From assembly GCF_000455825.1 (NCBI RefSeq), contig NZ_ATAO01000112.1:1-64000 (forward strand): a stretch of 64,000 nucleotides of DNA, written 5' to 3'. The notes under the pieces were generated by a model that saw only the letters and a list, made by a program, of their open reading frames with translations, made no database searches and had not been told where the DNA came from. Numbering within the stretch: the stretch's first letter is position 1; each line of letters starts with the position of its first letter. Below are positions 6,569 to 64,000 of the stretch, one piece after another. Source of the DNA: Microbacterium maritypicum MF109 (lineage in GTDB: Bacteria; Actinomycetota; Actinomycetes; Actinomycetales; Microbacteriaceae). The position numbers and the translations under genes were made by a program.

Positions 6569-8449
6569 TCAGGCCGTGGCGAGGACCGCCTTGGCCGAGG
6601 TCGTGCGTCGCAACGTCACCGCGAGCGTCGTGGCCACGAGCGACAGGACGCCCCAGACCACGAGTGCCGCGACCGCGGAACCGCTCGGCGTGATCAGACC
6701 CGCGAAGGCCGGAGCCGTCGGGAGGGCGGCCCCGATGCCAGCCAGCCAGTCCGGCACGGTCGAGATCAGGCCGGTCGCGACCGCGAGCACTCCGACGAGG
6801 GCGGAGATCCAGCGTCCGACGCCCCCGAACAGGGCGACGAGGGCCTGGTTCACGGCGGCGAACACCACACCGGCGAGCACGGCCGTGCCCGCGAACGCCC
6901 ACCAGGTGCCGGCGTCATAGCTCGCCACGATCTGCACGATCAGCGACACCAGGAGGCCCTGAGCCGCACCGACCAGCGCGGCCGGGGCGAAGGCCCGCAG
7001 CGCGAGAGTAGCGGATGACCGGCGCGAGGTGAGGGTGCGAGCGGTGTGCGCACGCATCACCACGAACGACGCGAGACCGCCGAACCAGAGCACGACCGCC
7101 GCGAGCAGCGGGATCGCCGTCGGGCCGAAGATGGTGTTCATCGACGAGTTCGACGACACCGGGTCGGCGATCACCGAGGCGAGCGACTTCGACTCGGTGT
7201 CGCTGAACGAGGGCAGGGAATCGGATGCCGTGCGCAGCCCGCCTGCGAGGTCACCTGTGCCGGTCGCCAGGGTGTCGAGCCCGGTGGTCAGTTCGGTGGC
7301 TCCGTCGGCGAGGGCGGTCGCTCCGCCGGAGAGCTGGGTCGCGCCGGAGGCGAGGCCGCGGGCGCCGGTGGCCGACGCTCCGATGCCCTGGTCGGCGAGC
7401 TGGGTGAGTCCGGACGACAGCTGTGTGGCGCCGGCGCCGGCCTGGGCCATCTGGGGTGCGATGGCTCCGGGGAGCGCTGAGAGCTGCCGAACACCGGCAT
7501 CGGTCTTCGCTGCCCCCGTTGCCAAGGCAGTCAACTGGTCGCAGTATGCCGCGGTCATGACCAGAGGATCGCAGTTGTCCGCAAGCGCTTTGATCCCTGC
7601 CGCGAGCTGCGTGGTGCCATCCGCGAGTGCGAGCGCACCAGGCGCTTGCTTCTGCAACTCCACCGCACCGGCCGTCAGCCCCGATCCGATCTGCGCCGCG
7701 CCGGCCGCAGCCTCACGCGTCTTGCCCGCGATCGTGTCGAGCCCGGAGGCGAGCGACGATGCACCCGTCCCGAGCTCACCCGCACCGGAGGCCAGCTTCG
7801 TGGCACCCTCCGGGATCGCTGCCGCTCCGGTGGCGGCATCGCGCGCGCCGTTCGCGAGCTTCACGGCGCCGTCTGCCGCCTCGCCGATCTGGTCGCCGAT
7901 CGTGGTGAATCCGACGAGGATGTTCTCGGTCGTCGCCTCGGAGAGCATCGTGCCCATGGTCGAGGCGGCGACGTTCGCGATCTGGCCCGTGATGAGGTCG
8001 TCGGCGACGAGGCCGTCTTCCGGCGTGGTCACTTCGATGGTGGCCTGCTCGGCCTTTCCTCCGCCGTCGGAGATCGCGGTACCGGCCGAGGTGGCGGCGG
8101 ACGAGAAGTCTTCCGGGATCGTGATGACGGCCTGGTAGGAGCCGTCGGCGAGACCGTCGGCAGCGTCGTCCTTGTTCGAGATCACCCACGTGAGGTTCGA
8201 ATCGAGGTCGTCCGACCCCTCCACGAGACCCGAAGCGAGCTGGCGTCCGAGGGGAGTCATCTGACCGTCGATGGTCACGGGCTCGTCGAGGTTGACGATG
8301 GCCGCGGTCATCGAGTCCAGGCGTTCGGTCGGGTTCTGCAGCGCCGCGACGAGGATGCCGCCGACCGCAGCCGGCAGCAGCAGTACGCCGAGGATGGTCA
8401 GCCAGGTGATGGGCTTGCGGGAGCGCGCGCGCTCGATGGGGAGGGTCAT
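6569..8449 (-). CDS. YhgE/Pip family membrane protein
   Basis: This 626 aa protein has the architecture of the YhgE/Pip (phage infection protein) family. One N-terminal helix (about residues 14-38) precedes a long extracytoplasmic region rich in heptad-like G-A-x-x-L-A-x-G repeats that predict coiled coil (about 190-400). Five to six membrane helices close the C terminus. It starts with an ATGA overlap at the stop of the MMPL gene, so the two are co-translated and probably form one export machine for lipid-like or cell-envelope substrates. The substrate is unknown. The long upstream frame extension to 9061 is antisense-like shadow coding and was not used. Confidence 0.82.
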   Translation of the reverse strand: MTLPIERARSRKPITWLTILGVLLLPAAVGGILVAALQNPTERLDSMTAAIVNLDEPVTIDGQMTPLGRQLASGLVEGSDDLDSNLTWVISNKDDAADGLADGSYQAVITIPEDFSSAATSAGTAISDGGGKAEQATIEVTTPEDGLVADDLITGQIANVAASTMGTMLSEATTENILVGFTTIGDQIGEAADGAVKLANGARDAATGAAAIPEGATKLASGAGELGTGASSLASGLDTIAGKTREAAAGAAQIGSGLTAGAVELQKQAPGALALADGTTQLAAGIKALADNCDPLVMTAAYCDQLTALATGAAKTDAGVRQLSALPGAIAPQMAQAGAGATQLSSGLTQLADQGIGASATGARGLASGATQLSGGATALADGATELTTGLDTLATGTGDLAGGLRTASDSLPSFSDTESKSLASVIADPVSSNSSMNTIFGPTAIPLLAAVVLWFGGLASFVVMRAHTARTLTSRRSSATLALRAFAPAALVGAAQGLLVSLIVQIVASYDAGTWWAFAGTAVLAGVVFAAVNQALVALFGGVGRWISALVGVLAVATGLISTVPDWLAGIGAALPTAPAFAGLITPSGSAVAALVVWGVLSLVATTLAVTLRRTTSAKAVLATA

Positions 8450-11247
8450 GCGGTCACCTCGGTGCAATCTGCGGTACTCCGGCGAGGAGCACGCGTGTCG
8501 AGAGTCTGGGGGTCGGGCCATCCGGCCTCGGCGAGGACGGCCCGTGCCGAGTCGGCATCGGAGGCGGTGGCGAACACCGCGAGCGTGCGGGAGGCCGCGG
8601 CATCGCGCAGCATGGCCGTCGCCTGGTCGCGCTGGCCACCTGCCAGGCGGTCGAGTCCGTCGATCACGACGATCTGCGACTTCCCACGGAGCGCTTCGGA
8701 GAGGTCGCCGAGTGCGGCATCCGCGTCGTCGACCAGCACGCAGCCGACGTGCGCGCGCACCCAGGCCGCACGACCGGGGAGCAGGTGTCCCGCGACGCGG
8801 AGCTTCCCGTCCGTCGGCACGAGGCGTCCGGCGACCGTGAGGGCCAGGGCCCGACGAGCCCGCAGATCGCCGCCCGTCGCGATGACCGCACCGCCCTCGG
8901 CGATGCGCATCGACAGGCCCTCGACGAGCGGCGCATCTGCGCTGATCTCGAGGTCGTCGGCCGCGACGACCGATCCGTCGCCGGGCCAGGCGGCCAGGTG
9001 GCGTTCGCGTTCGACCGCCTCGCCTTCGACGTCGACGCGGGGGAGGATCTTCTCCAGCCAACGCGGGAGCTCCCAGGCACGCTCGCCCAGGATCGCCATG
9101 AGGGCGGGGATCAGCGTCATGCGCACCAGGAAGGCGTCGAATGCGATACCGGCGGCGAGGCCGAGTGCGATCGGTTTGAGCGAGGAGTCGCCCTCGGGGA
9201 CGAACGCGACGAAGACCGCGAACATGATGAGCCCGGCCGCGGTGACGACCTTCGCCGAGCCGGTGAAGCCGCTGCGCACGGCCCGGAGCGCGGCGGCCCG
9301 CCGGGTGGCACGGTTCGGGCTCGTCGCGTCCTTGTCATGCACGAAGTCCTCGCGCATGCGGGAGACCAGGAACACCTGGTAGTCCATCGCGAGACCGAAC
9401 AGCACGCCCATCAGGATGATCGGCATGAAGCTGATGATCGGCCCGACCTTGGCGACGTGCAACAGATCGGCGAACCAGCCCCACTCGAACACCGCCCCCA
9501 CCACGCCGAAGGCGGCGACGATCGACAGCAGGTAGCCCACGGCGGCGGTGATCGGCACCCAGAGCGAGCGGAACACGATGGTCAGCAGGATCAGCGAGAG
9601 GCCGATCACGAAGATGCCGAACGGCAGGAGCGCGTTCCCGAGCTGGTCGGAGATGTCGATGCCGACGGCTGTGAACCCGGTGACCTTGAGGTCGATGCCG
9701 AACTCGTCGAGCCATTCGTCGTGATGGCTGCGCAGCTCGCGCACGAGATCGGCGGTCGCCGGGTCGTCGGGGGCGGTCTCCGGGATGATCTGCACGATAC
9801 CGGTGTCGGCCGTCTCGTTCGGCGTCGCGAGGGCGACCTCCTTGACGCCGGGGACCTTCGCCACGGCGTCGCCGAGATCTTCCATCAGGGTGAGCGGATC
9901 GGTGGAGGTGACGATCGTGCCGGTGAGGATCAGTGGACCGTTGAAGCCGGGGCCGAACTGCTCCCCGACGAGGTCGTAGTTCTGGCGGGCCTCGGAGTCC
10001 TTCGGGAGCACACCGGCATTCGGCAGCGCGAGGTCGAGGCTCAGCGCGGGAACGGCCACGATCCCGAGTCCCAGGACGACGGCGAGAGAAACCAGCACGG
10101 GGTGCTTCATGACGCCGCCGACCCAGCGGGCGCTGCCCTTCACCGGGGCGACGACGTCCTTCGGCTCCTCCGACGCGTCGGAGGCGGTGCTCTTCTTCGC
10201 CTTCGACGCCTTGACCTTCTTCGGGCGGCCGACGACCCTGCCCTTCATGAAGCCGAGCAGAGCCGGGGTGAGGGTCACGGCGATCGCCACGGCGACGGCG
10301 ACCGCGGCGGAGGCGGCGATGCCCATCGTGGTCAGGAACGGGATACCCGCGAAGCCGAGGCCGATCAGCGCGATGAGCACAGTGACGCCCGCGAACACGA
10401 CAGCGGAGCCTGCGGTTCCGACGGCGCGCGAGGCGGACTCCTCCGGGTCCACGCCCGCGCGCACCTGATCCTGATGTCGAGCCATGATGAACAGCGCGTA
10501 GTCGATGCCGACCGCGAGCCCGAGCATGAGCGCCAGCAGCGGGGTGGTCGAGGAGACGGTCGCGAACGCGGTCGCGGTGAAGATGCCGGCCATCGAGATG
10601 CCGACGCCGAGGATCGCGGTGAGCAGGGGGAGGCCCGCCACCACGAATGAGCGGAACGTGACGATCAGCACGAGCAGGGCGATGAGCAGTCCGACCGCTT
10701 CGGTGAGGGTGACGCCGGGGATGGAGATCGCGAAGAGGTCGCCGCCGAGGGAGGTCTGCGAGCCCGCGGGGAGCTCGGCGTCGAGGTCGCTCACGACCGA
10801 ACGCAGCGCATCCTTCGTCTCGTCCGAGACGTCGGTGGACTCGCCGTCGAACTGCACGCGCACGATGGCGGCGGTGTCGTCGTCGTTGATCATGCCCTTG
10901 ACCATCTCGTCGTACGGCGAGGTGGCCGCGAGAACACCGTCGAGGTCGCTCAGCTCGTCGACCGCGCCCTCGATGTCGTCCCGGTACTCGTCATCCGTGA
11001 TCTTGTCGCCGTCGGCCGCGACCACGATGAACTGCGCGTTCGTGCCGCTCACCTGCGGGAACGAGCGGGAGAGCTGCTCGAGCCCCGCCTGCGACTCCGT
11101 ACCGGGGATGGAGAACGTGTTGTCGGTTCCCGCGCCCAGCACGAGCGCTCCGGCGCCGGCGATGCCGAGCGCGAGCAGCCAGGACACGAGGACCCGCCAC
11201 GGGTGCCGGAAGGACCAGCGTCCGAGCGAGGACAGGAGTGTGGACAC
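8446..11247 (-). CDS. MMPL/RND exporter with a C-terminal ABC-ATPase-like domain
   Basis: This 933 aa inner-membrane exporter has the RND/MMPL layout: helix 1 near residues 15-35, an extracytoplasmic domain, five helices, a cytoplasmic Lys/Ser linker (about 355-385), then the same pattern repeated. The last ~200 residues are unusual. They look like an ABC nucleotide-binding domain (glsmriaeGGAV start, LVPTDGKLRVAG strand pair, Walker-B-like IVVIDGLDRL). The P-loop, however, is replaced by ATGGDLRARRAL, so nucleotide binding is doubtful. The GTG start at 11247 has a GGAGGAA site. The open frame upstream would run through the operators. It is divergent from the TetR gene and coupled to the YhgE/Pip gene. 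Confidence 0.85.
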   Translation of the reverse strand: MSTLLSSLGRWSFRHPWRVLVSWLLALGIAGAGALVLGAGTDNTFSIPGTESQAGLEQLSRSFPQVSGTNAQFIVVAADGDKITDDEYRDDIEGAVDELSDLDGVLAATSPYDEMVKGMINDDDTAAIVRVQFDGESTDVSDETKDALRSVVSDLDAELPAGSQTSLGGDLFAISIPGVTLTEAVGLLIALLVLIVTFRSFVVAGLPLLTAILGVGISMAGIFTATAFATVSSTTPLLALMLGLAVGIDYALFIMARHQDQVRAGVDPEESASRAVGTAGSAVVFAGVTVLIALIGLGFAGIPFLTTMGIAASAAVAVAVAIAVTLTPALLGFMKGRVVGRPKKVKASKAKKSTASDASEEPKDVVAPVKGSARWVGGVMKHPVLVSLAVVLGLGIVAVPALSLDLALPNAGVLPKDSEARQNYDLVGEQFGPGFNGPLILTGTIVTSTDPLTLMEDLGDAVAKVPGVKEVALATPNETADTGIVQIIPETAPDDPATADLVRELRSHHDEWLDEFGIDLKVTGFTAVGIDISDQLGNALLPFGIFVIGLSLILLTIVFRSLWVPITAAVGYLLSIVAAFGVVGAVFEWGWFADLLHVAKVGPIISFMPIILMGVLFGLAMDYQVFLVSRMREDFVHDKDATSPNRATRRAAALRAVRSGFTGSAKVVTAAGLIMFAVFVAFVPEGDSSLKPIALGLAAGIAFDAFLVRMTLIPALMAILGERAWELPRWLEKILPRVDVEGEAVERERHLAAWPGDGSVVAADDLEISADAPLVEGLSMRIAEGGAVIATGGDLRARRALALTVAGRLVPTDGKLRVAGHLLPGRAAWVRAHVGCVLVDDADAALGDLSEALRGKSQIVVIDGLDRLAGGQRDQATAMLRDAAASRTLAVFATASDADSARAVLAEAGWPDPQTLDTRAPRRSTADCTEVTA

Positions 11248-11378: not shown

Positions 11379-12002
11379 ATGTCGACACCCGCAACCCGCA
11401 GCCGCGAGAACACGCGAGCCCGCCTGCTCGAGGCGGCGGCGCAGGTCTTCGCCGAAGTCGGGCTCGATGGAGCGTCGGTGGAGGCCGTCTGCGAGCGTGC
11501 CGGTTTCACCCGCGGTGCGTTCTACTCGAACTTCGAGTCCAAGGACGAGCTGTTTCTCATGCTCGCCGCCAGCGTCTCCGAGGTGCGCGTGAACGCGGTG
11601 CGCACCCGCGTGGAGGAGCTGACGGCCGCCGGTGCCCTGGTCGAGGGGTGCGATCCGATCGACCTCGTGCAGCAGATCATGGAGCTCGGCGGAGACGATC
11701 GTCTCGGTGTCATGCTGCTCAGCGAGATCCGTATCCGTGCACTGCGCGACGCGAGGTTCGGCGAGGCCTACCTCACGCAGGAGCGCGAGATGGTCTCGAG
11801 CATCGCGCAGATCGTCGACGACATCGTCACCGCCGGCCTGCTGCGCCTTCGCCTGCCGGCCGAGACGGCTGCCCGCATGCTCATGATCATCTGGGAGGGC
11901 ATGACCGTGCGCGGCGCCATGGCGGGCCAGGATGACGCCCAGCTGCGGCACTCCGGTGGCGAAGAGCTCGGTCGTCTGGTGCAGCTGCTCATCGAGCAGT
12001 AG
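11379..12002 (+). CDS. TetR-family transcriptional repressor
   Basis: This 207 aa regulator has the canonical N-terminal helix-turn-helix (ARLLEAAAQVFAE then GFTRGAFYSNF, residues about 10-55) and an all-helical ligand-binding domain. The ATG at 11379 follows AGGAGG with 6 nt spacing. The frame is open to 11334 but nothing supports that start. It is divergent from the MMPL gene across two palindromes of the same half-site, so repression of the exporter operon and of itself is the natural reading. The ligand is unknown. Confidence 0.9.
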   Translation: MSTPATRSRENTRARLLEAAAQVFAEVGLDGASVEAVCERAGFTRGAFYSNFESKDELFLMLAASVSEVRVNAVRTRVEELTAAGALVEGCDPIDLVQQIMELGGDDRLGVMLLSEIRIRALRDARFGEAYLTQEREMVSSIAQIVDDIVTAGLLRLRLPAETAARMLMIIWEGMTVRGAMAGQDDAQLRHSGGEELGRLVQLLIEQ

Positions 12003-53164: not shown

Positions 53165-54373
53165 TTGCCCTTCGAGACTTCCCAGGCTGCCTCTGCGCCC
53201 ACGCGCCGGTCCAGCCGACTCCGCACTGCGGCCTCTGAGGCCCCCGCGGCGGGACCGACGGCACCCATCTCTGCCGCCGAATCCGCCGCCGCGCCCACTG
53301 CCGCCGCCCCCACTGCCGCGGTCGACGCCACAGCCGTCGCCCTGGCTGCTGTCGCCCCGCTTTCCCGGCGTGCCGCCCGCCAGCGCCCCACGGCCGACGA
53401 TGTCGCCGCCGAGCCGCTGGTCGAGCCCTTCATCGCTCCGAACCCGGAGCCGATCATCGCCGATGTTCCCGATGTGCCCGGCGACGACGCCGACGCGTTC
53501 GAGCGTGCGTCCCGCGCGTTCCGTGCGACCGGTCCCGTTCCCACCGTCTCCGCAGCCGACCGTGCGCGGGCGCAGTCGGCGCGCGCCTCCGACGACGAGC
53601 CCGTCGCCTCCGTGCATGTGGCCGCCCGTCGTCCCCGCAACATCCGCAAGGCTGTGACTCTCAGCGCGACTGTCGGGGTGATGAGCCTCGCCGGTCTCCT
53701 CGCGGTGTCCATGACGCTCCCCGCCGAGGCGGTCGCCGGCGTGCAGGGTGCTTCGGCGGCATCGATGTCGCTGGTGTCGTCCTCCGCCGAAGAAGCGAAG
53801 GACACGGCCGAGGGTGAGATCCAGGCGTTCGTCGCGCCATCCGGTGTCGAGAGCGAGGCGCTCACCCGCGCCGATGACTTCAGCACGGTCTCGCTCGCCG
53901 AGGTCGCCGCGGAGCAGGGCATCAACTATTCGGGCGAGATCTTCACGAACGACCCCGACGCCGCGATCCAGTGGCCGTTCCTCGTCGGCGTGGGCATGAG
54001 CTACGGCTACGGCATGCGCAGCGGCCGCCTCCATGAGGGCATCGACTTCGTGCCGGGCAACGGCGCGCCGATCCAGGCCATCGCCGACGGCACGGTCCGC
54101 ATCGCGACCGAACAGGGCGGTGCCTTCGGTGTCACGGTCTACATCGACCACGTCATCGATGGCCAGGTCATCACGAGCCACTACTCGCACATGCAGTACG
54201 GGTCTCTGAACGTCAAGGCCGGCGACACGGTGACGGTCGGCACTGTCGTCGGCAAGACCGGAAACACGGGCCGTTCCTACGGCGCCCACCTGCACTTCGA
54301 GCTCATCGTCAACGGATCGACCATCGACCCGATGCCGTGGCTCAAGGAGAACGCGGGTCGAACGTCGTACTGA
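53165..54373 (+). CDS. M23-family (LytM-type) peptidoglycan endopeptidase
   Basis: This 402 aa protein has a long, charged cytoplasmic N terminus (about 160 residues, Ala/Pro/Arg-rich), one membrane helix (about 170-190), a linker and a C-terminal LytM domain. His290 and Asp294 (HEGID) and His375/His377 (HLHFE) are the zinc and catalytic residues, so the domain should be active. It would cleave cross-links outside the cell. The start is a TTG at 53165 with GAGAGAA upstream. A later start is possible because the N terminus is poorly conserved. Confidence 0.85.
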   Translation: MPFETSQAASAPTRRSSRLRTAASEAPAAGPTAPISAAESAAAPTAAAPTAAVDATAVALAAVAPLSRRAARQRPTADDVAAEPLVEPFIAPNPEPIIADVPDVPGDDADAFERASRAFRATGPVPTVSAADRARAQSARASDDEPVASVHVAARRPRNIRKAVTLSATVGVMSLAGLLAVSMTLPAEAVAGVQGASAASMSLVSSSAEEAKDTAEGEIQAFVAPSGVESEALTRADDFSTVSLAEVAAEQGINYSGEIFTNDPDAAIQWPFLVGVGMSYGYGMRSGRLHEGIDFVPGNGAPIQAIADGTVRIATEQGGAFGVTVYIDHVIDGQVITSHYSHMQYGSLNVKAGDTVTVGTVVGKTGNTGRSYGAHLHFELIVNGSTIDPMPWLKENAGRTSY

Positions 54374-54383
54374 CCGGCTCGAT

Positions 54384-54413
54384 TTCATGAGGACGCCACA
54401 GTGATGGTATTCT
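54384..54413 (+). promoter_or_regulatory. Promoter of the tRNA-Thr/tRNA-Met unit
   Basis: TTCATG (54384-54389), an 18 nt spacer and TATTCT (54408-54413), about 28 nt before tRNA-Thr. Confidence 0.45.
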
Positions 54414-54441
54414 CGTACGGTTGCCCCGCGAGGGGCAGCAC

Positions 54442-54513
54442 GCCCCGATAGCTCAGTGGCAGAGCACTTCCATGGTAAGGAAGGGGTCGTCAGTTCAATC
54501 CTGACTCGGGGCT
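54442..54513 (+). tRNA. tRNA-Thr (GGT)
   Basis: Acceptor GCCCCGA pairs with TCGGGGC. The anticodon stem CTTCC/GGAAG frames loop ATGGTAA with anticodon GGT at 54474-54476. The T loop is TTCAATC. CCA is not encoded. Confidence 0.95.
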
Positions 54514-54548
54514 CGCAAGCATTCTTCTCACGCGGACGGATGCCTCGC

Positions 54549-54622
54549 GGCAGGGTAGCTCAGCTGGTTAGAGCGCACGACTCATAATCGTGAGGTCGCG
54601 GGTTCAAGCCCCGCTCCTGCTA
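54549..54622 (+). tRNA. tRNA-Met (CAT), probable integration target
   Basis: Acceptor GGCAGGG pairs with TCCTGCT with G-U pairs at both ends. The anticodon loop has CAT within GACTCATAATC, the elongator-Met pattern. The T stem is GCGGG/CCCGC. CCA is not encoded. The mobile element's atypical sequence starts directly after it. Confidence 0.92.
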
Positions 54623-54632
54623 CAGATCAAGA

Positions 54633-54654
54633 CCCTCGGATTTCCGGGGGTTTT
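54633..54654 (+). terminator. Intrinsic terminator after tRNA-Met
   Basis: CCCTCGGA (54633-54640) pairs with TCCGGGGG (54643-54650), followed by TTTT. The loop is only TT in the fully paired form. Confidence 0.75.
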
Positions 54655-54695
54655 GTCGTATCCGGGGCGATGGCTGGCGCAGCGCAGGGGAGGGC

Positions 54696-54715
54696 TGTGC
54701 CGGTTTTGTGCCGGT
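54696..54715 (+). repeat. TGTGCCGGT direct repeat near tRNA-Met
   Basis: TGTGCCGGT occurs at 54696-54704 and 54707-54715, an 11-bp period of about one helix turn. Such repeats near attachment sites can be integrase arm-binding sites. This is inference. Confidence 0.45.
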
Positions 54716-54794
54716 AGCAGTCGCGATGAGGGGTGCAACCCCGTCCGAATCTAGGGATGCAGCTCGTTCCGCCCACCGAGAGAAAACCCTCATC

Positions 54795-54830
54795 ATCGGC
54801 GTTACCGATTGAATATCACACAACGCCGAT
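54795..54830. promoter_or_regulatory. Inverted repeat upstream of the frameshifted gene
   Basis: ATCGGCGTT (54795-54803) and AACGCCGAT (54822-54830) are perfect 9-base arms with an 18 nt spacer. TAGGCT at 54830-54835 is a plausible -10, so this may be an operator. It is otherwise unexplained. Confidence 0.45.
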
Positions 54831-54875
54831 AGGCTACGAGTGCCCAGCGAGGAAGCTGGTAGGAGCGGGGTCGAT

Positions 54876-55491
54876 ATGTCGTCAGCAGTACAACAGCTAC
54901 TACCCGAACACAACAGCTCATGCGAGCGAGCGCGGTTATCCGCCTGCAACTGCTTCTGTCACGGCGCTGGTCATCAACTTGACCTCATCAAGCGGGCAGT
55001 GACTTGCACCTCCACTGGTGAAAACAACATCGGCCAGCTCCTCGCTGATCTTGAAGGTGTGTACGGCGGGTTTCATTCCAGTCTGCGTGACGGAGTCCCT
55101 GAAGCTCGACGAAAAGTTCCAGAAGATCTTGCACAGCTCGACCTCAATCGCGGTCGCGGCGCAACATGGGTAGAGACGCTGATTCTCGATGAGGCACTTC
55201 ACGCTGCGTTTGTCGGTGTGGCTCGGGCTAGCGTCTCGCTAAGCAACTCTGAGCGGGAGAGTCGGAAGGCGTTCGTGATTCGGCTATACGAAGGCGCACT
55301 CCCTATCGTGGGTGGAGATGTGGAAACACACAATATCTGCGATGGACATCTCTGGTGCAGCGTGCTTGCAGAAGCGAACGACCCCCGTGCGCAGACTGCT
55401 ACGCCGAGCGGGAACCAAGCCCCTCCTCATGGTCGAATCGCGTACCCTCGTAGCCGTCAAGCGCGTATTCCACTGCGATTGGCCGCGGTGA
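54876..55491 (+). pseudogene. Frameshifted cargo gene with a C-x-C-x-C-x-G-x-x-H motif
   Basis: From ATG 54876 (AGGAG 11 nt upstream) the frame gives a Cys/His cluster, S-A-C-N-C-F-C-H-G-A-G-H at residues 25-36, then a globular helical region to about residue 170 (ending HLWCSVLAEAND). After the five-C run at 55382-55386 this frame becomes Arg/Pro/Ser-rich and loses protein character. The +1 frame instead continues as PVRRLLRRAGTKPLLMVESR and stops at 55489-55491. One extra C would explain this: a disrupted gene of about 205 codons, a sequencing error or a slippage site. The family is not identified. The motif suggests metal binding. Confidence 0.55.
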
Positions 55492-55512
55492 GATCACGCG
55501 GTCTGGCCCATG

Positions 55513-55629
55513 TTAGGTCAGCGGTCGGTTCGAGTACACCGGTTCCGGGTGCGAGTGAGATCGTTCACCTGCTGGGCACAGCCACTTGCCCCGACCTTTG
55601 GCATCACCCCGCTGCCGTGCGTCATTCAT
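55513..55629 (-). CDS. Possible 38-residue ORF with a strong ribosome site
   Basis: A minus-strand ATG at 55629 is preceded by GAAGGAG at 4-5 nt, and the frame runs 38 codons to TAA at 55513. The peptide is basic and low in hydrophobics (starts MNDARQRGDAKGRGKW). There is no recognisable family. It may be the decayed start of a longer gene. The rest of 55492-55815 holds nothing I can support. Confidence 0.25.
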   Translation of the reverse strand: MNDARQRGDAKGRGKWLCPAGERSHSHPEPVYSNRPLT

Positions 55630-55815
55630 TGCTCTCCTTCGTTGCGGCATCTACCTGGGCGCCCGCGGGCACAACGACCCTCGCATCTCGGTCTCAACTT
55701 GGCGTTCTTGAAGAACGGTGGGAGAAGCGTGGAAACTGGTGAACTTGGCTCGGAGAGGCGCAGGGGACGGCTGCTCCGCTAGTAGTAGGTGAGGAAGCTG
55801 CGCAGACGGACGAAT

Positions 55816-56052
55816 CTACGGGCTGTCAGCGGCGTGGACGTCGGGGCAGTCCGCGAGACAGCATCCGCAGATCGGGTGTTCGTGCGTCCCCATGTCGGCC
55901 TCGTTCGGGCACTCGCAGTCCGGGCATGCGCAGCGAGTGCCCAGCGCTGGATGTCCGAGTTTGGCGCGCTCGGCATCAGTGAGGTCGGCGCTGACCACCA
56001 CGAGGTGCGTCTCGCCGTCGAGCGTGACGTAGGTAGCTTCTTGATTTGGCAT
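55816..56052 (-). CDS. Cys-rich small protein, probable zinc binder
   Basis: This 78 aa protein has a C-x-C-x2-C-x-C cluster (CACPDCEC, about residues 41-48) and a second cluster HPICGCCLADCPDVH (about 58-72). That makes seven or eight Cys plus His residues in 35 residues, suited to one or two zinc ions. The first 40 residues contain a beta-rich YVTLDGETHLVVVSADLTDAER segment. It is encoded on the element between the frameshifted gene and the GIY-YIG-like gene. No known family is assigned. Confidence 0.65.
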   Translation of the reverse strand: MPNQEATYVTLDGETHLVVVSADLTDAERAKLGHPALGTRCACPDCECPNEADMGTHEHPICGCCLADCPDVHAADSP

Positions 56053-56181
56053 AACGGATCAGGATACGCGATGTCGTCGCGGTGCAGAGGGAGAAAGCTG
56101 TTTTTGCCGATAGCTCCCGATAGTTCGCTTCATTTATCGGCAACTATATGGACCGTCAGTCCTCGTACGGCGGCGAAGTCG

Positions 56182-56889
56182 TCAGGCCCAGGCTCCTCGA
56201 TACGCGATCGGAAGCTCATCGTTTAGGGACTTGAGTATCTCGCGGAACGGCGGCAGCGAGACACTATCGCTCCAGAACTCGGTTGCTCCCGCCCACTGCG
56301 CGATCCAGAGAGGCGGCTCTGCGCGGGCTGCATCGACCCGGACGAGACATTCGCTTTCGAGCAGCCGCGCAAGGGTCCGGTTCTTCACTCGGACCGTGTC
56401 AAGGACGATGCCGCCAGCTTGCGCCAGTGCTTGGGGGCGGCTTGTCGATGCTTTCGAGATGCCGACCTTGTACAGTCCCGGCTCCTCAAAATGTATGAGG
56501 TAGACGACGCACTCCTGGTTATCCTCGACCTCGAAGTCCAACATGTCCCACGCATGCCGAAGGTACATCTTGATCTGTCGCGATTGATCTTCCGAGGAAG
56601 GCTTCGTGAGTTGACCCGTCCGGCGAAAGGCAACGGACAGATCGTCGTATCGAGGATCGGGGCGACGCCACGCCGCGAGCCAACTCCTTGCCTGGAGCCT
56701 TGTGGGATGTCCCGACCACCAACCTTCTCCGGGCGTGCGTGCGGCGTCGGGGAGGGCGCACCCGAGGATGGCTTCGATCTCGACGAAGCTCAGCAAGACC
56801 TCCTCCGCTTCCTCGTGGGTACGCAGGTAGTCGTACAGCGGCGCGTATGGCCCCATCTGCACCTCGTGGTGATCTCGCAGCGCCATCAC
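56182..56889 (-). CDS. DUF7662-like/GIY-YIG-like fusion protein, coupled to the integrase
   Basis: This 235 aa protein seems to have two modules. The first (about residues 15-75) has YAPLYDYLRTH, SFVEIEAILGCALPDAAR, a WW pair at 57-58 and an Ala-rich ARSWLAAW, the pattern I associate with DUF7662. The second (about 127-190) resembles a GIY-YIG nuclease core: Y130-L-I, Y140-K-V-G143, Arg151 and Glu178/Glu180. The ATG overlaps the integrase TGA (ATGA), so it is co-translated with the integrase. DNA cleavage linked to integration, or defence against competing DNA, are possibilities. Family assignment is from memory of the motifs. Confidence 0.6.
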   Translation of the reverse strand: MMALRDHHEVQMGPYAPLYDYLRTHEEAEEVLLSFVEIEAILGCALPDAARTPGEGWWSGHPTRLQARSWLAAWRRPDPRYDDLSVAFRRTGQLTKPSSEDQSRQIKMYLRHAWDMLDFEVEDNQECVVYLIHFEEPGLYKVGISKASTSRPQALAQAGGIVLDTVRVKNRTLARLLESECLVRVDAARAEPPLWIAQWAGATEFWSDSVSLPPFREILKSLNDELPIAYRGAWA

Positions 56890-58007
56890 TCTGTTCCCAT
56901 CAGTTTGTCGAGCGCGCCGTTCGCGCGGACCGCTGCATCAGATCTTGCCCGGCTGTATCGCTCCGTGACCTGCATCGAGGAATGCCCGAGGATCGCCTGG
57001 ACGTCGTTCGCAGCAGCGCCAGCATCGAAGAGCAGGGTCGCGAGTGTGTGGCGAAGGTCATGGATGCGCAGATCAGGGCGATCGAGTCGATTCCTCAGCT
57101 CGTCCCAGTCGACGGCCCGGCGAACATTCGATGTGTTGAGCCGGCCGCCGTTCGGGCCTGTGAACACCAGCTCGTTCCGTCCGAGACTTGCAACCCTGCG
57201 AACGATGATCGAGCGCAGAGCGGAGGGCAGCGGCACAGTACGTTCCTTGTGACTCTTTGGCGATTGTTCGCGCACTCTGCCACCGCCAGCAGGCGAGAAG
57301 CTACGCCGGACATGGATAACACCGTGCGCCAGATCGACGTCGCCCACCCTCAACGCGCTTGCCTCGCCGGCACGCATGCCCGTGTACACCAAGGCCGCCA
57401 GATAGTCGCGGTGAGGCCCCTCATCGACAGAGTCGAGCATCGTTGCAACCTCGGACAGCGTCAGTGCCCGTGAACGAAAGCTGGACGGGCGTTCGCCTCG
57501 TGGACGCCTCGCCAACCGCACCGGATTCACTCCGATGATCTCTGCACGCGCAGCGCCCTCGAGTAGCCGACTGAGCACAGCCAGGGCGTCATTGCGGGTG
57601 GACGCCGATCCGCTCCATCCCGTTATCGCGTCGTCCACATCACTCACCCCGATGGACTCGATCTTTCGATGGCCAAGCCACGGCTGCACTCGGAGTCGCC
57701 ACCCACGTTCGTACGCCGCGGTCGTCGCGGGGCGTAGTCCTTCTGTAAGCGACGGCCAATGCCGAACCTGCCAAGCATTCAGCGTCATCCCGTCGGCGCG
57801 CACCTGCGAACGCATCTCGCTACGGATCTTCTTCGCTTCGCCGAGCGTGTCCACGAGGTAGCTCCGCTCTCGGTCTTCTCCGTTGAGGCCGGTAGCCCAC
57901 ACGCGGACCTGATACTTGTTGCGGTCCGCACGATAGCGAATGCCCTCGGGCAGCGGCTTGCGGGTCTTGGGATCGATCCGCGCGCTACTGGAGGCCACGA
58001 GTGCCAC
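56886..58007 (-). CDS. int: Tyrosine-family integrase
   Basis: The integrase mediates site-specific insertion and excision of the element. The 373 aa protein has an N-terminal arm-binding region (about 25-65), a core-binding SAM-like domain (about 75-165) and a catalytic domain. The catalytic domain has Arg212 (TGMRAGEA), a likely Lys near 254, His316-x-x-Arg319 (HDLRH), His342 (LGHSS) and nucleophile Tyr351 (TERYSRA). All catalytic positions are present. It starts within the excisionase 3' end and its stop overlaps the next gene's start. Confidence 0.95.
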   Translation of the reverse strand: MALVASSSARIDPKTRKPLPEGIRYRADRNKYQVRVWATGLNGEDRERSYLVDTLGEAKKIRSEMRSQVRADGMTLNAWQVRHWPSLTEGLRPATTAAYERGWRLRVQPWLGHRKIESIGVSDVDDAITGWSGSASTRNDALAVLSRLLEGAARAEIIGVNPVRLARRPRGERPSSFRSRALTLSEVATMLDSVDEGPHRDYLAALVYTGMRAGEASALRVGDVDLAHGVIHVRRSFSPAGGGRVREQSPKSHKERTVPLPSALRSIIVRRVASLGRNELVFTGPNGGRLNTSNVRRAVDWDELRNRLDRPDLRIHDLRHTLATLLFDAGAAANDVQAILGHSSMQVTERYSRARSDAAVRANGALDKLMGTE

Positions 58008-58221
58008 CCGCGTCGAGGAAGGTTTCGATTGTTGACAGCCTCCACAGCATGTGCTTGCCCATGTGCGCGTCAGGAAACGGGACCCGTGCCTGTCGTCGCA
58101 ACGAATCGAACGTCGAGAGAGGCACGCGGCAGCGGGCAGCCACCTCCCGGCGAGTCAGGTACTTGTCCTCGACGGCCTCTGACTCAGCAGTGTTTTCGAC
58201 CAGCTCAAGTTGTTTACGCAT
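57985..58221 (-). CDS. xis: Excisionase-type helix-turn-helix protein
   Basis: This 78 aa protein has a MerR-like winged-helix motif (YLTRREVAARCRVPLSTFDSLRRQ, about residues 20-43) and an ExW-type wing (GKHMLWRLSTIETFLDAG), as in AICE and phage Xis/AlpA proteins. It would bend DNA at the attachment site and favour excision. The ATG at 58221 has GAGAGGAAAG upstream. The initiator stop lies just inside its first codons, so expression is coupled to rep. Confidence 0.85.
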   Translation of the reverse strand: MRKQLELVENTAESEAVEDKYLTRREVAARCRVPLSTFDSLRRQARVPFPDAHMGKHMLWRLSTIETFLDAGGTRGLQ

Positions 58222-59575
58222 CACTCTTTCCTCTCTGAGATTCGAACCGCACCCGTCGTGCGTCTCGCCATTCACGTGCGGCGCGGGCGGCTTCGATCGC
58301 GAGAGCCCGGTCACCCTCATTCCGCCAGCCCATTCCCGCAAAGCTCCATGAGCCCACTACCAGCACCTCGTCGACGTCGTAGCCTTCCTCTTTGGCTCGT
58401 TCCACGGTGCGTGCCAAGCGCCAAGCGCGACGGGCTCCTCGGAGCGAGCCAAGTGTCACCGAGTACCGGCGCGACTTCGAGGAGAAGTGTCCACGGAAGC
58501 CCAGCATGTGCGACCACTTCCTGAGCAGCGCGTAGGGGCCCTCCGGACCGTTCTCCTCGGCAATCAGCTCAGCGGTGGCCTTGATCACTTTCACGTGCGG
58601 GCGGTCACGGCTCCCGCTACTGAGATCCTCCGTCGCCTTGGTGGCGTACTTTGCGATGTATGCCGCTACGGCTCGGTCAGAGAGCGTGCCGTCGAGCCCC
58701 TCACGACGAACGATCGGTTGAACATCGATCTGCGCACCCCACCGGAGAACCCGAGCGGATGCCTCTCCACGCACCGCCGGAGTCTCATACACGACTCGAC
58801 GCGACGACTTCCGAACCGCAGCGATGAGACATGCTTCGGTCACTTGGTCCGGGGCAGGCGGGAACTGTTCTGTCGGGCTAACGCCGTCGAGCCGAATGAT
58901 CGCGTGAAAGTGCACCGCTCCGCGTCGCTGAAACTCCGCCACTTTGGCGAACTGGACCCGTACGATCTCCGCAGCGGCTCTCTGAGTCATCCCGAGCTCG
59001 TAAGCCAGCTGCCGCCGGAGCTGAATGGTGAACCGCCTCCACAGCTCGGGTGCAAAGTACTGCCACACGACGTGGCCAACGTAGTCATAGCATTCCTCGC
59101 ACAGCGGCTCGCCGAGGAGTCCGTCGTCGTCATCGTGATTGCAGAAGCACCCGCGCGGCTTGCCATGAACGCAGGTGCCACGTCTCCGCGAACCAGCCAG
59201 AGAGTGGACGGCACCGAAAGACGGAGCGGTGAGTGTGACGAACGCCATCGGGTGTTCGCCTACCCCTTCGGGAACCCCTTTCATCCCACCCGCAGCGCCA
59301 GCCATGATCATGTGCCACGTATCGCCCTTGTACTCGTGGCTGCAGGATTCGCAGCGACGGGCGCGACGGTTTCCGCATCTCGTGTATGAGATGCGGTCAG
59401 GTTGCGTCTCCGCCACGAACTCACGGATCACCTCACCGGTCTGCGGATTCATCGTGGCCGACGAGCCGGTGAGTCGAACCGGGTTGGAGCAGAATCCAAC
59501 GCGTGCCGCGCCCGCCATCCATTGATCGAACTCGGAGCTTCGCAACCGCGCGGCTACGGCCTCAGCGATACTCAA
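58214..59575 (-). CDS. RepSA-like HUH replication initiator
   Basis: This 453 aa initiator belongs to rolling-circle AICE replicases. It shows a zinc-type cluster (CGNRRARRCESCSHEY), a second cluster with PLCEECYDY, and the HUH metal motif in VHFHAIIRLDG. A Tyr that could attack DNA lies in AAYIAKYATKATED. The start is taken as the TTG at 59575 with CGGAGG 6 nt upstream. A TTG at 59596 is also open. It overlaps the upstream small gene by 14 nt. Confidence 0.87.
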   Translation of the reverse strand: MSIAEAVAARLRSSEFDQWMAGAARVGFCSNPVRLTGSSATMNPQTGEVIREFVAETQPDRISYTRCGNRRARRCESCSHEYKGDTWHMIMAGAAGGMKGVPEGVGEHPMAFVTLTAPSFGAVHSLAGSRRRGTCVHGKPRGCFCNHDDDDGLLGEPLCEECYDYVGHVVWQYFAPELWRRFTIQLRRQLAYELGMTQRAAAEIVRVQFAKVAEFQRRGAVHFHAIIRLDGVSPTEQFPPAPDQVTEACLIAAVRKSSRRVVYETPAVRGEASARVLRWGAQIDVQPIVRREGLDGTLSDRAVAAYIAKYATKATEDLSSGSRDRPHVKVIKATAELIAEENGPEGPYALLRKWSHMLGFRGHFSSKSRRYSVTLGSLRGARRAWRLARTVERAKEEGYDVDEVLVVGSWSFAGMGWRNEGDRALAIEAARAAREWRDARRVRFESQRGKSDA

Positions 59576-59936
59576 CGTCGACCTCCGTGGGCACAACGCA
59601 CGAGAGTGGAGTGCGCGTCAGCGGGTCGATAGACAGCGGGCGACAGACTCTGTTATCGAGCCCATCGGATTGCTGCTGGTCCTGCCAGGCGATGATCTGC
59701 GCATCAGAGCACGCAGGATTCGCGATGCGTACGTCGACCGAATCCTCATCGGCAACGGCCGGAACCTCACCCTGCGGGAACCACAGATTGCAGGGGGAGG
59801 GCTGCCTGTCTGGTGTATCCGATGAAGCGGTCGTGGATGCCGTTCCGAGTGTGTAACCGGCAGCGGCACCTAGACCGAGCAGGAGCGCTGCTCCCATAAT
59901 CGACGCGCCGAGAACGGCGACTGTTCTCTTGTTCAT
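59562..59936 (-). CDS. Small membrane-anchored protein of the transfer operon
   Basis: This 124 aa protein has an N-terminal helix (about residues 7-30, GASIMGAALLLGLGAAAGY) and an extracytoplasmic domain with four cysteines (CNLWFP, NPACSD, RVCRPL, LSCVVP), probably two disulfides. It lies between the translocase and the initiator with overlaps on both sides. Position in the operon suggests an accessory role in transfer, but the function is unknown. Confidence 0.65.
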   Translation of the reverse strand: MNKRTVAVLGASIMGAALLLGLGAAAGYTLGTASTTASSDTPDRQPSPCNLWFPQGEVPAVADEDSVDVRIANPACSDAQIIAWQDQQQSDGLDNRVCRPLSIDPLTRTPLSCVVPTEVDVEYR

Positions 59937-61336
59937 GATTCTTCTCCTGATCTGTTCGTTGCATTCGACCGTGATGCTCGCGGACGCCGTGCCCCTGGAG
60001 CAGCTACCTGCTCGACGACCTCGACAGGGCGTGGACGCGGGGTGGCAAACGTCTCAGCTGCTTCCCTGATCTGCGCGTCAGTCGCGAAGGCTGCCCGCAC
60101 ACGCACCGGAGGCCCTGTTTCGGGAAGCACGTACGCGACTCCAGGCGTAGACGGCGAGATCTCGTGACACATCGCACCCGCTGCAACTGCCCCGTCGCCA
60201 AGAACCATGGCCGTCTCGGTGCGGTCACGGAGCCTGAGCCCTACGGTCTGTGTGAACAGGCCCCGCGCCGGGAGCGTCTCCTTGCGGGGATCCTGCAAGC
60301 ACGCGAAGACGATGAATCCCACCGCCCGTCCTTGGGATGCGAGCGTCGCGATTGCGGCATTCGCGCGGCGGAGCATGTCTCGATCGGTTTCGTACGATGT
60401 CAACGCTGCAAGCTCATCGATCAGCACGATCACGGTCGGGCTGTCGACCGAGGCGACGTGCTGCCTGGTCACCCCTGCAAGCTGGCGCGCTCGTATCTGC
60501 ATCTGCGCGACAGCGTCTTCCAAGAGCGCTACGGAATGCGCTGCATCGTCTGCGAACCGCGTGAGCAGACGGCGGCCCATCGCAAGCTCCATGCCACCCT
60601 TGCGGTCGATGCCCCAAACTTCGATGAGGCCGGAGTGGATGGGCTGCGCCAGTCCCAGTAGAAGGCCCCACACGAGCGAGGCTTTACCGCTGCCGGATGA
60701 CCCCGCGACCAACGTGTGTGGGCCGAGCGGGAGCCGCCAATCGTGACCACCTTCCGACACGCCCATCAGAACTGATCTGCCGTCCCAGTTGCTGCCGAGC
60801 TGAAGCGCGAACGAACGTGCCAGCACGTCGACGTAGTCGATCCGCAACGCGAGCGCCCCGATCTGCTGGCCTTCTACGGCAACTCGAACGGCGTTGAAGG
60901 CCTCAGCGATGCGCCCTGTCGCCGCGACAAGATCCTCCCGCGCCAGTCCCGGAGGCATCGCAACGGGAAGGAGGCACGTCCATCCATCCCATTGCGGCTG
61001 CCCCGCGCCGGACACGAGGGGATTCCCCGCGATGTCCTTGACCTCTAGCCGGAGGTTGCGGGCCAGGGCAGGCCATGACGCCAAGATCCGTGCGCCCATC
61101 TGCTCTTGCCACCGCCGGTGCAACACGGTGTCCAGATCACGCGCTGCAAGAAGGCGGCGCAACACGACCACTGCGAACGCGCCCACCACCAGCCAGTTGA
61201 CGAGCTGGCCGACGAATGGCACCGCGCTGAAGAGCCCGAGGACTATGAGCATTGGGACTAGCCACCATCCGCGACGCCACAGGCGCGGCAACTCACCAGC
61301 CCAGTACGCGCGTTCGATCCGCCATGACCAGTCCAT
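59933..61336 (-). CDS. FtsK/SpoIIIE-type DNA translocase (TraSA/TraB-like)
   Basis: This single-protein conjugation motor moves double-stranded DNA in AICEs. The 467 aa protein has two N-terminal helices (about 24-58), a linker and an FtsK-type ATPase with Walker A GSSGSGKAS at 212-220 and Walker B VIVLIDELAAL near 305. The arginine-rich GLRLRDRTETAMVLG segment matches the family. A C-terminal DNA-binding gamma domain is not obvious beyond a basic Arg-rich tail. The ATG overlaps the preceding stop by one base. Confidence 0.92.
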   Translation of the reverse strand: MDWSWRIERAYWAGELPRLWRRGWWLVPMLIVLGLFSAVPFVGQLVNWLVVGAFAVVVLRRLLAARDLDTVLHRRWQEQMGARILASWPALARNLRLEVKDIAGNPLVSGAGQPQWDGWTCLLPVAMPPGLAREDLVAATGRIAEAFNAVRVAVEGQQIGALALRIDYVDVLARSFALQLGSNWDGRSVLMGVSEGGHDWRLPLGPHTLVAGSSGSGKASLVWGLLLGLAQPIHSGLIEVWGIDRKGGMELAMGRRLLTRFADDAAHSVALLEDAVAQMQIRARQLAGVTRQHVASVDSPTVIVLIDELAALTSYETDRDMLRRANAAIATLASQGRAVGFIVFACLQDPRKETLPARGLFTQTVGLRLRDRTETAMVLGDGAVAAGAMCHEISPSTPGVAYVLPETGPPVRVRAAFATDAQIREAAETFATPRPRPVEVVEQVAAPGARRPRASRSNATNRSGEES

Positions 61337-61734
61337 CAGTCGTTGCTCCTCGGCTTGCCTGCGGGCTTCATTTCGCGAGCGCGGAGTGAGAACGCAACGC
61401 GCGGACGCCCACCGTTCTCCTTGACATACGGAGTGACTGAAAGACCGTCGAAAAAGACCGGGCGGAAGGGGAGCCCGTTGGCCTCCGGCGGTGCCGCAGG
61501 TTCCGCGATGCTCGCGATCTTGACTGTGACCTCGTTCTGTCCCTTGCGGGCCTCAGGGTCTGCGTCGATCACGCGCACCTGCCAGAGCGGGTGCCCGGTG
61601 TTCTTGTCCAGATCCTGTCCCTGCCGTTCTCCGTCATCGGACCACTTCGCGACGGGCTCGACCTCGCCGACCATGAACGCTCCACGAGGGAAGTACGCCT
61701 CGAAGCTGACCGGGATTCCTGACTGCAGTGCCAT
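61336..61734 (-). CDS. AICE conserved hypothetical protein upstream of the translocase
   Basis: This 132 aa protein is beta-rich with repeated V-x-V strands (PLWQVRVIDADPEARKGQNEVTVKI) and a basic tail. That arrangement resembles small DNA-binding OB-like or ssDNA-coating proteins, but no diagnostic motif is present. It is the first gene of the minus-strand transfer operon, with an AAGGAATG ribosome site, and is coupled to the translocase by TGATG. Its consistent position beside Tra in such elements suggests a transfer or replication function. Confidence 0.65.
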   Translation of the reverse strand: MALQSGIPVSFEAYFPRGAFMVGEVEPVAKWSDDGERQGQDLDKNTGHPLWQVRVIDADPEARKGQNEVTVKIASIAEPAAPPEANGLPFRPVFFDGLSVTPYVKENGGRPRVAFSLRAREMKPAGKPRSND

Positions 61735-61853
61735 TGCTCATTCCTTTCAGTTGGTGATGCTTTATCTCTGTACGGAAGACTGCACGTCAGTACGGGTTTT
61801 AGTCAATGTTCGGTTTTTGTCTTTTTCTAGTCATGTACTCCTTACGGCAACGG

Positions 61854-61870
61854 GCCTATCTCGGATAGGC
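61854..61870. promoter_or_regulatory. Palindrome in the divergent promoter region
   Basis: GCCTATC (61854-61860) and GATAGGC (61864-61870) are perfect 7-base arms around TCG. The right arm overlaps the TAGGCT -10 box, so a repressor site controlling the rightward gene is plausible. Confidence 0.5.
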
Positions 61871-61871
61871 T
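61866..61871 (+). promoter_or_regulatory. -10 box for the rightward operon (leaderless mini-ORF)
   Basis: TAGGCT ends 7 nt before the ATG at 61879, the start of a five-codon ORF. Confidence 0.5.
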
Positions 61872-61878
61872 GTCGAGC

Positions 61879-61896
61879 ATGGAGGTTGTGCGATGA
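61879..61896 (+). CDS. Five-codon leader ORF (MEVVR)
   Basis: ATG at 61879, TGA at 61894-61896, overlapping the ATG at 61893 (ATGA). The ORF contains the GGAGG site for the downstream gene. This would be a leaderless coupling peptide, analogous to the dppB-dppC mini-ORF. Function is inferred only. Confidence 0.4.
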   Translation: MEVVR

Positions 61897-62501
61897 GTGA
61901 ACTGTCCGCGCTACCCGTGTGGGGCGTCGTGCCGCTACCGGTCGCCGCCGTTCTTCAGCGACTGAAAACCAAGGCGGCAGATGCTGTCAACGCCATGGAC
62001 GCGGCGCAGGTCACTAGCGGCACGCCGCAGAACCACGACGAAGCGTTCTTGAAGATGTCCGCAGCGGCTGAGGCGGCGGATCGGGCGACTCGCGACTACC
62101 GGAGTGTGTTCAATGCCTACGCTCACAGGTTCCACAAGCCGAAGCCGCCCATTGGCGAACTTGCCGCTATGCAGGGCACCATCACTCAGTCGTTCGCTTC
62201 TCGCTACACGGCGAAGACGGTCGGCGCGATCGAGGCTCTTCTTTCACCGGCCCCGGACCTTGATGCCATCCGGCTTGGCATCCGCGCGCTTGGGTTCAAC
62301 GACCTTCGGGGCATCTCGCCCGAGCTGGACCGTCAACTTGCTCTGGCGGAAGCCGACGCCAAGTTTGTCCCGTGGAAGCCGGTGCCAGACGCATTCGGGC
62401 GCTACTCCGTAGTTGGCAGTGCGGCTGATCAGTCTCTCGGTGATCTCAGCTTCGACCTGACACGCAAGGTCTCGTCTCCCGAGGCGGTAGCGGAGCTGTG
62501 A
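61893..62501 (+). CDS. Element-encoded protein of unknown function
   Basis: This 202 aa soluble protein is predicted helical in residues 15-80 (LQRLKTKAADAVNAMDAAQ then AAEAADRATRDYRSVFNAY) with a later mixed region containing WKPVPDAFGRYSVVGS. No signal peptide, membrane helix or known motif is visible. It is the first gene right of the divergent promoter, so its expression is probably separate from the transfer operon. It may be a regulator or immunity protein, but there is no direct support. Confidence 0.6.
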   Translation: MSELSALPVWGVVPLPVAAVLQRLKTKAADAVNAMDAAQVTSGTPQNHDEAFLKMSAAAEAADRATRDYRSVFNAYAHRFHKPKPPIGELAAMQGTITQSFASRYTAKTVGAIEALLSPAPDLDAIRLGIRALGFNDLRGISPELDRQLALAEADAKFVPWKPVPDAFGRYSVVGSAADQSLGDLSFDLTRKVSSPEAVAEL

Positions 62502-62756
62502 GAACTTTCTTTACTCGTTCAAGGCCGACCTAGCGGCCGGCTGCGCCACCTGCGGTGCGTCCGGTCCTCGCTCCGCTGCGGTCCGGGCGCTCCTCGGGGG
62601 CGCGCACCGCGAGAGAAGCGGCCATCGAGTGTGACGACCGCGACTTCATCCTGCGGCCACGCCGGGGACAGAGCGTCTAGCACGCCTTCGGGGCGCTGTC
62701 AGTCGCGGGTGGTAGTGTTGGGCTGAGTTGACGAGCTAGCCGGAGGGGAGGGCCAA
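62502..62756. other. GC-rich intergenic region, possible cis-acting transfer site
   Basis: These 255 bases contain no supported gene. GC-rich imperfect inverted repeats lie in 62545-62615 (for example GCGTCCGG and CCGGGCGC). AICE double-strand transfer needs a small cis locus (clt) and this is a candidate. TAGTGT near 62712 could be a -10 for the downstream pair. Confidence 0.3.
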
Positions 62757-63934: not shown

Positions 63935-64000
63935 GAAGTTCTCAGGCAGTTCGCGACGAAGTGAGTACACCACTCGTGTTGGCTCTGTTCAGCGCTTCGA

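Follow-up and report, generated by a model that had tools for sequence, protein, structure and literature searches.

The window, i.e. the entire 64,000-nucleotide stretch that was analyzed, contains an open reading frame for an MMPL exporter whose C-terminal region descends from an ABC-type nucleotide-binding domain (NBD), as judged from profile comparisons, a tree and a structure model. The MMPL pump probably carries this degenerate NBD (pseudo-NBD) as an adaptor for a YhgE/Pip family membrane protein encoded immediately downstream; the docking of YhgE, the transfer of energy and the nature of the substrates are the parts of this reading that we infer. Computed support comes from the NBD fold and ancestry of the tail, its loss of catalytic motifs, gene linkage and purifying selection. 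A description of an MMPL-NBD fusion was not found among the papers listed in searches of the open-access literature on YhgE, MMPL and RND/ABC fusions.

The exporter gene is on the minus strand at positions 8446–11247. It starts with GTG and encodes a 933 amino acid protein that includes the C-terminal pseudo-NBD. The protein displays a Pfam match to PF03176 in two stretches (E-value = 3.8e-81) and thus belongs to the MMPL family. The yhgE/pip gene (TIGR03061, PF12698) follows on the same strand at positions 6569–8449, and the stop codon of the MMPL gene and the ATG of yhgE share 4 bases (ATGA). A TetR-family regulator (PF00440, E-value = 4.6e-15) is encoded on the plus strand at positions 11379–12002, divergent from the MMPL gene and separated from it by 131 bp. 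This arrangement is common: 109 of the 137 fused loci in which the upstream sequence is long enough (drawn in part from the best 80 of 545 named loci) have a TetR gene no more than 800 bp upstream, and 82 of the 109 are in divergent orientation. Among the matches listed from named genomes, the closest tail is that of Microbacterium sp. MYb66 (90%). Elsewhere in the window, the segment at positions 54001–64000 has a G+C content of 0.60–0.64, and the remainder one of 0.65–0.72; the low G+C segment is possibly acquired DNA.

The MMPL core has Asp-Tyr motifs in both halves (IDYALF and MDYQVF). Such pairs form the proton relay of MmpL3. Both halves contain them in 135 of 139 fused MMPLs (drawn in part from the best 80 of 545 named loci); in the remaining 4 the match spans only 344–504 residues and the first half is absent from the open reading frame. 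Since the Asp-Tyr pairs are kept and the ATPase motifs are lost (see below), the proton-driven side of the protein looks intact and the ATP side gone.

The C-terminal tail and ABC nucleotide-binding domains

The MMPL core is followed by a linker (positions 8980–9087, minus strand), which carries a conserved LPxxDxEGE motif in alignments of related tails. A close form of this motif, LPNVDVEGA, is present in an MMPL that has no tail (L240). The last ~170 residues (positions 8476–8979, minus strand) correspond to residues 37–204 of the structure model and display a degenerate ABC NBD fold, as seen in the AlphaFold2 model, its VIA-align matches and a two-piece profile match. The preliminary description had proposed that residues ~735–933 follow the order of an ABC NBD, with a replaced P-loop and a Walker-B-like strand. 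These residues map to positions 8449–9050, and the profile, the model and the tree are in agreement with the proposal. The sequence ATGGDLRARRAL is present in place of Walker A at positions 8845–8880 (minus strand; sequence and family counts), and VVIDG, a Walker B remnant, is at positions 8656–8670 (minus strand), where the Asp is kept and Gly takes the place of the catalytic Glu. One correction is that the helical subdomain is lost as well as the P-loop.

Taken by itself, the window tail gives no Pfam match at an E-value of 1 or less, and its NCBIfam matches are weak, the top three being ABC ATPases (NodI, E-value = 0.0013). For the profile and the structure model an alignment of 70 tails was used (A3; 69 of the 77 tails listed, plus that of the window). 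A search of the PDB with the A3 profile yielded 164 distinct sequences with an E-value of 0.01 or less (best E-value = 1.4e-8); of the 60 matches listed out of these 164, 59 are ABC proteins and the other is a designed TIM barrel. The two alignments displayed, both with EcfA, are in two pieces: positions 42–124 align with chain residues 5–90, and positions 125–187 with residues 144–206 (the second piece by itself has an i-Evalue of 1.5). The tail profile skips EcfA residues 91–143, which we take to be the Q-loop, the helical subdomain and the signature. The break in the alignments thus points to the absence of this stretch from the tail.

Structure prediction, which had been proposed as a check, gave an AlphaFold2 model of the tail with a mean pLDDT of 90 and a pTM of 0.82. 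The model matches ABC ATPases and not an unrelated fold. All 50 Foldseek matches listed are ABC proteins (best E-value = 1.1e-9), and all VIA-align matches listed are ABC-type ATPases or transporters; the alignment with 4yer_A has a Z-score of 17.9 over 160 residues at 2.4 Å. When ten whole genomes were scanned, the A3 profile also weakly picked up many other open reading frames over its NBD columns, and several of these in the genome of the window coincide with PF00005 matches (for example on contigs C2 at ~15.3 kb, C13 at ~76.7 kb and C206 at ~433.8 kb). PF00005 (cut-off 25) was also compared with four other fused tails: L120 passes with 39.4 bits and L036 just passes with 25.4, L121 is under the cut-off with 21.6 bits and L055 shows no match. 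These comparisons indicate that the tail of the window MMPL is of ABC NBD descent.

Motif counts were made on 137 unique fused tails (including those from the best 80 of 545 named loci), 23 free-standing NBDs and a reference set of 15 ordinary ABC ATPases, 13 of which are from the genome of the window (out of 30 ABC loci) and 2 from other loci. The ordinary ABCs all have the Walker A Lys, Q-loop Gln, SGG, Walker B Asp and catalytic Glu (15/15), and 14 have the H-loop His. The Q-loop Gln is found in none of the 137 fused tails and in none of the 23 free NBDs. The catalytic Glu after Walker B is present in 3 fused tails and the H-loop His in 2; neither occurs in a free NBD. The signature motif is at its proper place in none of the 137 fused tails, and the sole SGG[QEM] string (L162) falls after Walker B. 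An intact Walker A (GxxxxGK[ST]) is seen in 11 of the 137; the window tail and 126 of the 137 have no intact P-loop. The segment between the Q-loop and the signature is 9 residues or fewer in 102 fused tails, 10–54 residues in 7 and at least 55 in 28.

The decay of the motifs takes two forms. In the clade to which the window belongs the helical subdomain has been lost, with GxxxxGKS surviving in a few members (L036, L044); another clade, with L055 and L046 among its members, has the helical subdomain with a shortened P-loop. Judged by its motifs, the tail in the window does not qualify as a functional ABC ATPase (Walker A, Q-loop, LSGGQ, Glu, His). The tail had been described as apparently catalytically dead, and its lack of the Walker A Lys, the Q-loop, the signature and the catalytic Glu is consistent with this.

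Free-standing relatives and the origin of the fusion

The nearest relatives of the tail, i.e. the free-standing proteins that score best, have their genes immediately before other YhgE genes. This was found in all 20 loci examined, 13 of which were chosen without reference to YhgE and 7 for a close YhgE match. No match to the MMPL model is present in these 20 loci (L140–L159), nor was a three-gene layout with separate MMPL, NBD and YhgE genes, as might precede a fusion, seen among them. Because the free NBDs adjoin YhgE without an MMPL in 20/20 loci, the NBD family appears to track YhgE and not MMPL.

The free NBDs are themselves already degenerate: besides the missing Q-loop Gln, catalytic Glu and H-loop His, SGG is found in 0/23. 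The helical subdomain (53–86 residues) is kept in 23/23. The P-loop reads GxxxxG[KR][ST] in 15 of the 23 and the strict GxxxxGK[ST] in 5. Three of the five free NBDs scanned pass the Pfam ABC_tran model, and the AETEQRP type (L241, L251) has no Pfam match. The genome of the window has another YhgE gene (L241:3983–6519, contig C195) that follows this second, well-conserved type of free NBD-like protein, whose P-loop region is AETEQRPTVLGL. The same pairing of an NBD-like gene with YhgE is seen in six more loci in other genomes (L248, L249, L251 and L253–L255).

Residues that tie the fused tails to the YhgE-partner NBDs and set both apart from ordinary ABCs include Arg809 and Asp867. Arg809 (P0001 numbering) is present in 132/137 fused tails and 23/23 free NBDs, and in none of the 15 ordinary ABCs (L in 12, I in 2, M in 1). 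Asp867 (P0001 numbering) is present in 106/137 fused tails and 21/23 free NBDs, and again in none of the 15 (T in 10, L in 3, F in 2). A further residue, P825, is near-invariant in the fused tails (135/137).

A tree of 93 rows, rooted on the ordinary ABCs (which are few), splits the YhgE-type NBDs from the ordinary ABCs with a support of 97. All 55 fused rows fall into a single group with a moderate support of 85, nested inside the free NBDs, and the earliest branches among them, L120 and L122, both have Walker A and the helical subdomain. The tree excludes 15 fused rows that were judged to be fast or odd, 3 short fragments, and the near-duplicates that a k-mer filter removed. L169, where a frameshift splits the tail, and L232, which is at a contig end, were left out of the tail sets; L236 is a contig-edge fragment. 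A YhgE-partner NBD is the most likely source of the fused NBD. The simplest reading of the tree, with moderate confidence, is a single fusion followed by erosion.

Linkage of the tail with YhgE, and the YhgE protein

Fused loci were chosen by tail similarity and not by the presence of YhgE. They comprise 139 fused open reading frames (138 distinct proteins) from the family of the window, 12 other families of its class and named genomes. In the first set (the window, 40 loci of the same family and 20 from the twelve other families) YhgE is directly downstream on the same strand in 61/61. The named loci are the best 80 of 545 confirmed in a scan with the tail alignment, and 78 of these have an unbroken fused open reading frame; YhgE is downstream in 76 of the 78, and the other two (L225, L232) stop at a contig edge. 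Whether the fusion always precedes a YhgE/Pip gene had been raised as a question in the preliminary description: it does so in 137 of the 139 fused open reading frames (including those of the best 80 of 545 named loci), and the other two are contig ends.

In ten genomes, MMPLs with a tail are beside YhgE in 11/11 cases and tailless MMPLs in 0/16 (tallied by hand, with AcrB-size, SecD/F-size or weak RND matches left out by judgement). As these genomes were picked for carrying the fusion and the earlier set already covers most of the 11, the new information is the 0/16. One candidate exception, L240, was considered as a tailed MMPL without YhgE and was rejected: its C-terminal extension fails to match the tail model. 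The presence of YhgE next door in nearly every relative examined suggests that a dead motor domain is now a connector between two pump types.

Twelve further YhgE loci were also inspected. An NBD-like gene is directly upstream in 7, and none was found beside YhgE in the other 5 (L242, L250, L252, L256, L257). One of these, L242:5829–10900 in the genome of the window (contig C217), is a tandem pair of YhgE genes with no NBD-like neighbor found. Two irregular loci are also recorded. On the chromosome of Microbacterium sp. Se63.02b (L169:3706–8608) the tail is divided over two reading frames, which may reflect either a broken fusion or an error in the sequence; in Microbacterium yannicii PS01 (L217:6308–8513) the YhgE gene is in two overlapping frames.

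The YhgE protein of the window scores 105.3 bits with TIGR03061, over the cut-off of 96.15, and is thus a member of the YhgE/Pip family. With TIGR03062 it scores 50.3 bits, under the cut-off of 102.2, and with the EsaA N-terminal model 43.6 bits, under the cut-off of 122. It also matches PF12698 (ABC2_membrane_3) with 46.4 bits, over the cut-off of 31.6. In the structure model (pLDDT 82, pTM 0.54), helices as long as 111 residues lie between the presumed first and second membrane helices. By VIA-align the membrane part aligns with ABCG16 over 178 residues (Z-score 15.8, 2.7 Å), and Foldseek gave no match for the model with an E-value of 0.001 or less. YhgE thus appears to have an ABC-2/type V-like membrane fold, an assignment that rests on PF12698 and on VIA-align, where helical proteins can score high by chance.

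In ABC-2 membrane domains, an NBD normally sits on a cytosolic loop. A tail of NBD ancestry whose coding sequence immediately precedes yhgE is therefore in keeping with a docking role. The corresponding loop of YhgE was placed between the second and third membrane helices (model residues ~466–479). A test of whether this predicted coupling loop has diverged together with the loss of the helical subdomain was negative (ratio 1.21 vs 1.20, p = 0.65).

A further idea was that tailless MMPLs have a coiled coil of their own where tailed ones rely on that of YhgE. It was only partly borne out: three of the six tailless MMPLs scanned (L240, L244, L246) have coiled-coil-type model matches and the other three have none, and the xxxLxxG repeat model is listed for none of the six. 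The coiled-coil-like stretches in L240:4829–7723, L244:4328–6874 and L246:2998–6393 weakly match the YhgE model as well as coiled-coil-type models.

Possible role of the tail and its relationship to known systems

The proposed system is a TetR-associated operon in which a proton-driven MMPL/RND exporter with a C-terminal pseudo-NBD is followed at once by YhgE/Pip, with its ABC-2/type V-like membrane fold and a long coiled coil that would point outward. The ancestor of the pseudo-NBD would be a free-standing, degenerate NBD of the kind paired with YhgE elsewhere in Actinobacteria. It would have been fused once to MMPL, after which some lines presumably lost the P-loop and others the helical subdomain. 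The present-day tail would no longer work with ATP; most likely it would be an adaptor through which YhgE is held or gated on the MMPL pump, and the MMPL proton relay would drive export through the MMPL-YhgE pair. Other MMPLs have hydrophobic or lipid-like substrates, and those of this pair are probably similar. In a more specific form, which is possible but rather doubtful, YhgE would be held and driven by the proton-powered RND pump via the dead NBD, and the coiled coil of YhgE would be a conduit through the cell wall; an ABC scaffold would then run on proton motive force in place of ATP.

Some observations count against an adaptor, the negative co-divergence result among them. A coupling helix normally docks near the helical subdomain of an NBD, and an ABC-like contact might be weaker once that subdomain is lost. 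Nor is such an NBD always required by YhgE, as none was found beside it in 5 of the 12 further loci. The tail also evolves faster than the pump, as would be expected of a decaying part: in eight comparisons, all of which share the window gene, dN/dS is 0.17–0.48 for the tail and 0.04–0.18 for the core, and the tail value is the higher in 8/8.

This last result bears on the reading that the tail is an evolutionary leftover, useless and decaying after the fusion and kept mainly because its frame runs into the yhgE start. The progressive loss of motifs, which differs between clades, and the 4-base overlap of the two genes in the window are also in its favor. The same dN/dS values, however, suggest that the tail is under purifying selection, and the fold is confidently predicted; the tail is retained in many families with near-invariant residues (R809 in 132/137, P825 in 135/137), so that a mere leftover is unlikely. 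It had been asked whether the tail is absent from orthologs or of random composition. Homologues are found across the family and beyond, which, together with the dN/dS values, indicates more than chance. A random C-terminal extension can be dismissed, as the tail is conserved, confidently folded and under selection.

The tail could also regulate MMPL itself (assembly, turnover), in which case the link to YhgE would be a shared substrate or regulon only. The tail is covalently part of MMPL and TetR neighbors are common, but its free relatives adjoin YhgE without an MMPL model match in all 20 loci (L140–L159), and such a role is improbable. A nucleotide sensor that binds without hydrolyzing, with the gating of MMPL or YhgE set by the energy state, is very improbable: GxxxxGK[ST] is kept in 11/137 fused tails and 5/23 free NBDs (GxxxxG[KR][ST] in 15/23), but as the window tail and 126 of the 137 have no intact P-loop, nucleotide sensing would be at best ancestral or lineage-specific.

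If an adaptor role for the tail is correct, the system would join two transporter superfamilies that usually draw on different sources of energy. To our knowledge, little is known of YhgE/Pip function beyond phage reception and type VIIb secretion; the family would gain a concrete partner and a testable role. The series from L120, in which the P-loop is kept, to the window, with neither P-loop nor helical subdomain, would show the change of a motor domain into a connector. As the free YhgE-partner NBDs examined are also degenerate, Actinobacteria may commonly use ABC-type membrane domains in an ATP-independent way.

The relationship to known systems can be summarized as follows. With the ABC_tran NBD (PF00005) the window tail has in common the RecA-like and beta subdomain fold, the strand order and the Walker B Asp; it differs by the absence of a working P-loop, the Q-loop, the helical subdomain, LSGGQ and the catalytic Glu, and by its covalent attachment to an RND pump. 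The free-standing degenerate NBD before YhgE/Pip in Actinobacteria shares the GR, LP and D signatures and the gene order with the fused tail, but it is a separate gene, keeps the helical subdomain and has a Walker A of the GxxxxG[KR][ST] type in 15/23. MmpL3 and MmpL4-5 exporters have the MMPL core and DY motifs in common with the window protein, which scores far below the cut-off of the MmpL3 and actII models (NCBIfam); a C-terminal pseudo-NBD or a YhgE partner for MmpL3 or MmpL4-5 was not found described in the open-access literature searched.

For YhgE/Pip proteins, including EsaA/YueB of type VIIb secretion, the likeness is in the downstream gene, which is over the cut-off with TIGR03061 and under it with the EsaA model. 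A slight hint on function comes from Saccharopolyspora hirsuta, where F1721_04135 (YhgE) and F1721_04140 (MMPL), with neighboring locus tags, are up 3.82- and 3.33-fold, respectively, with cholesterol (PMC9782250); the fusion is present in a Saccharopolyspora relative (L209). YhgE and YueB are described as paralogues whose predicted domains are the same (PMC3701619), and the YukC pseudokinase is reported to bind YueB in B. subtilis (PMC9600267). YukC-YueB is a parallel for a pseudo-enzyme that is paired with the YhgE/YueB membrane family; the pseudo-enzyme there is a pseudokinase, whereas in the window it is an ABC NBD fused to MMPL.
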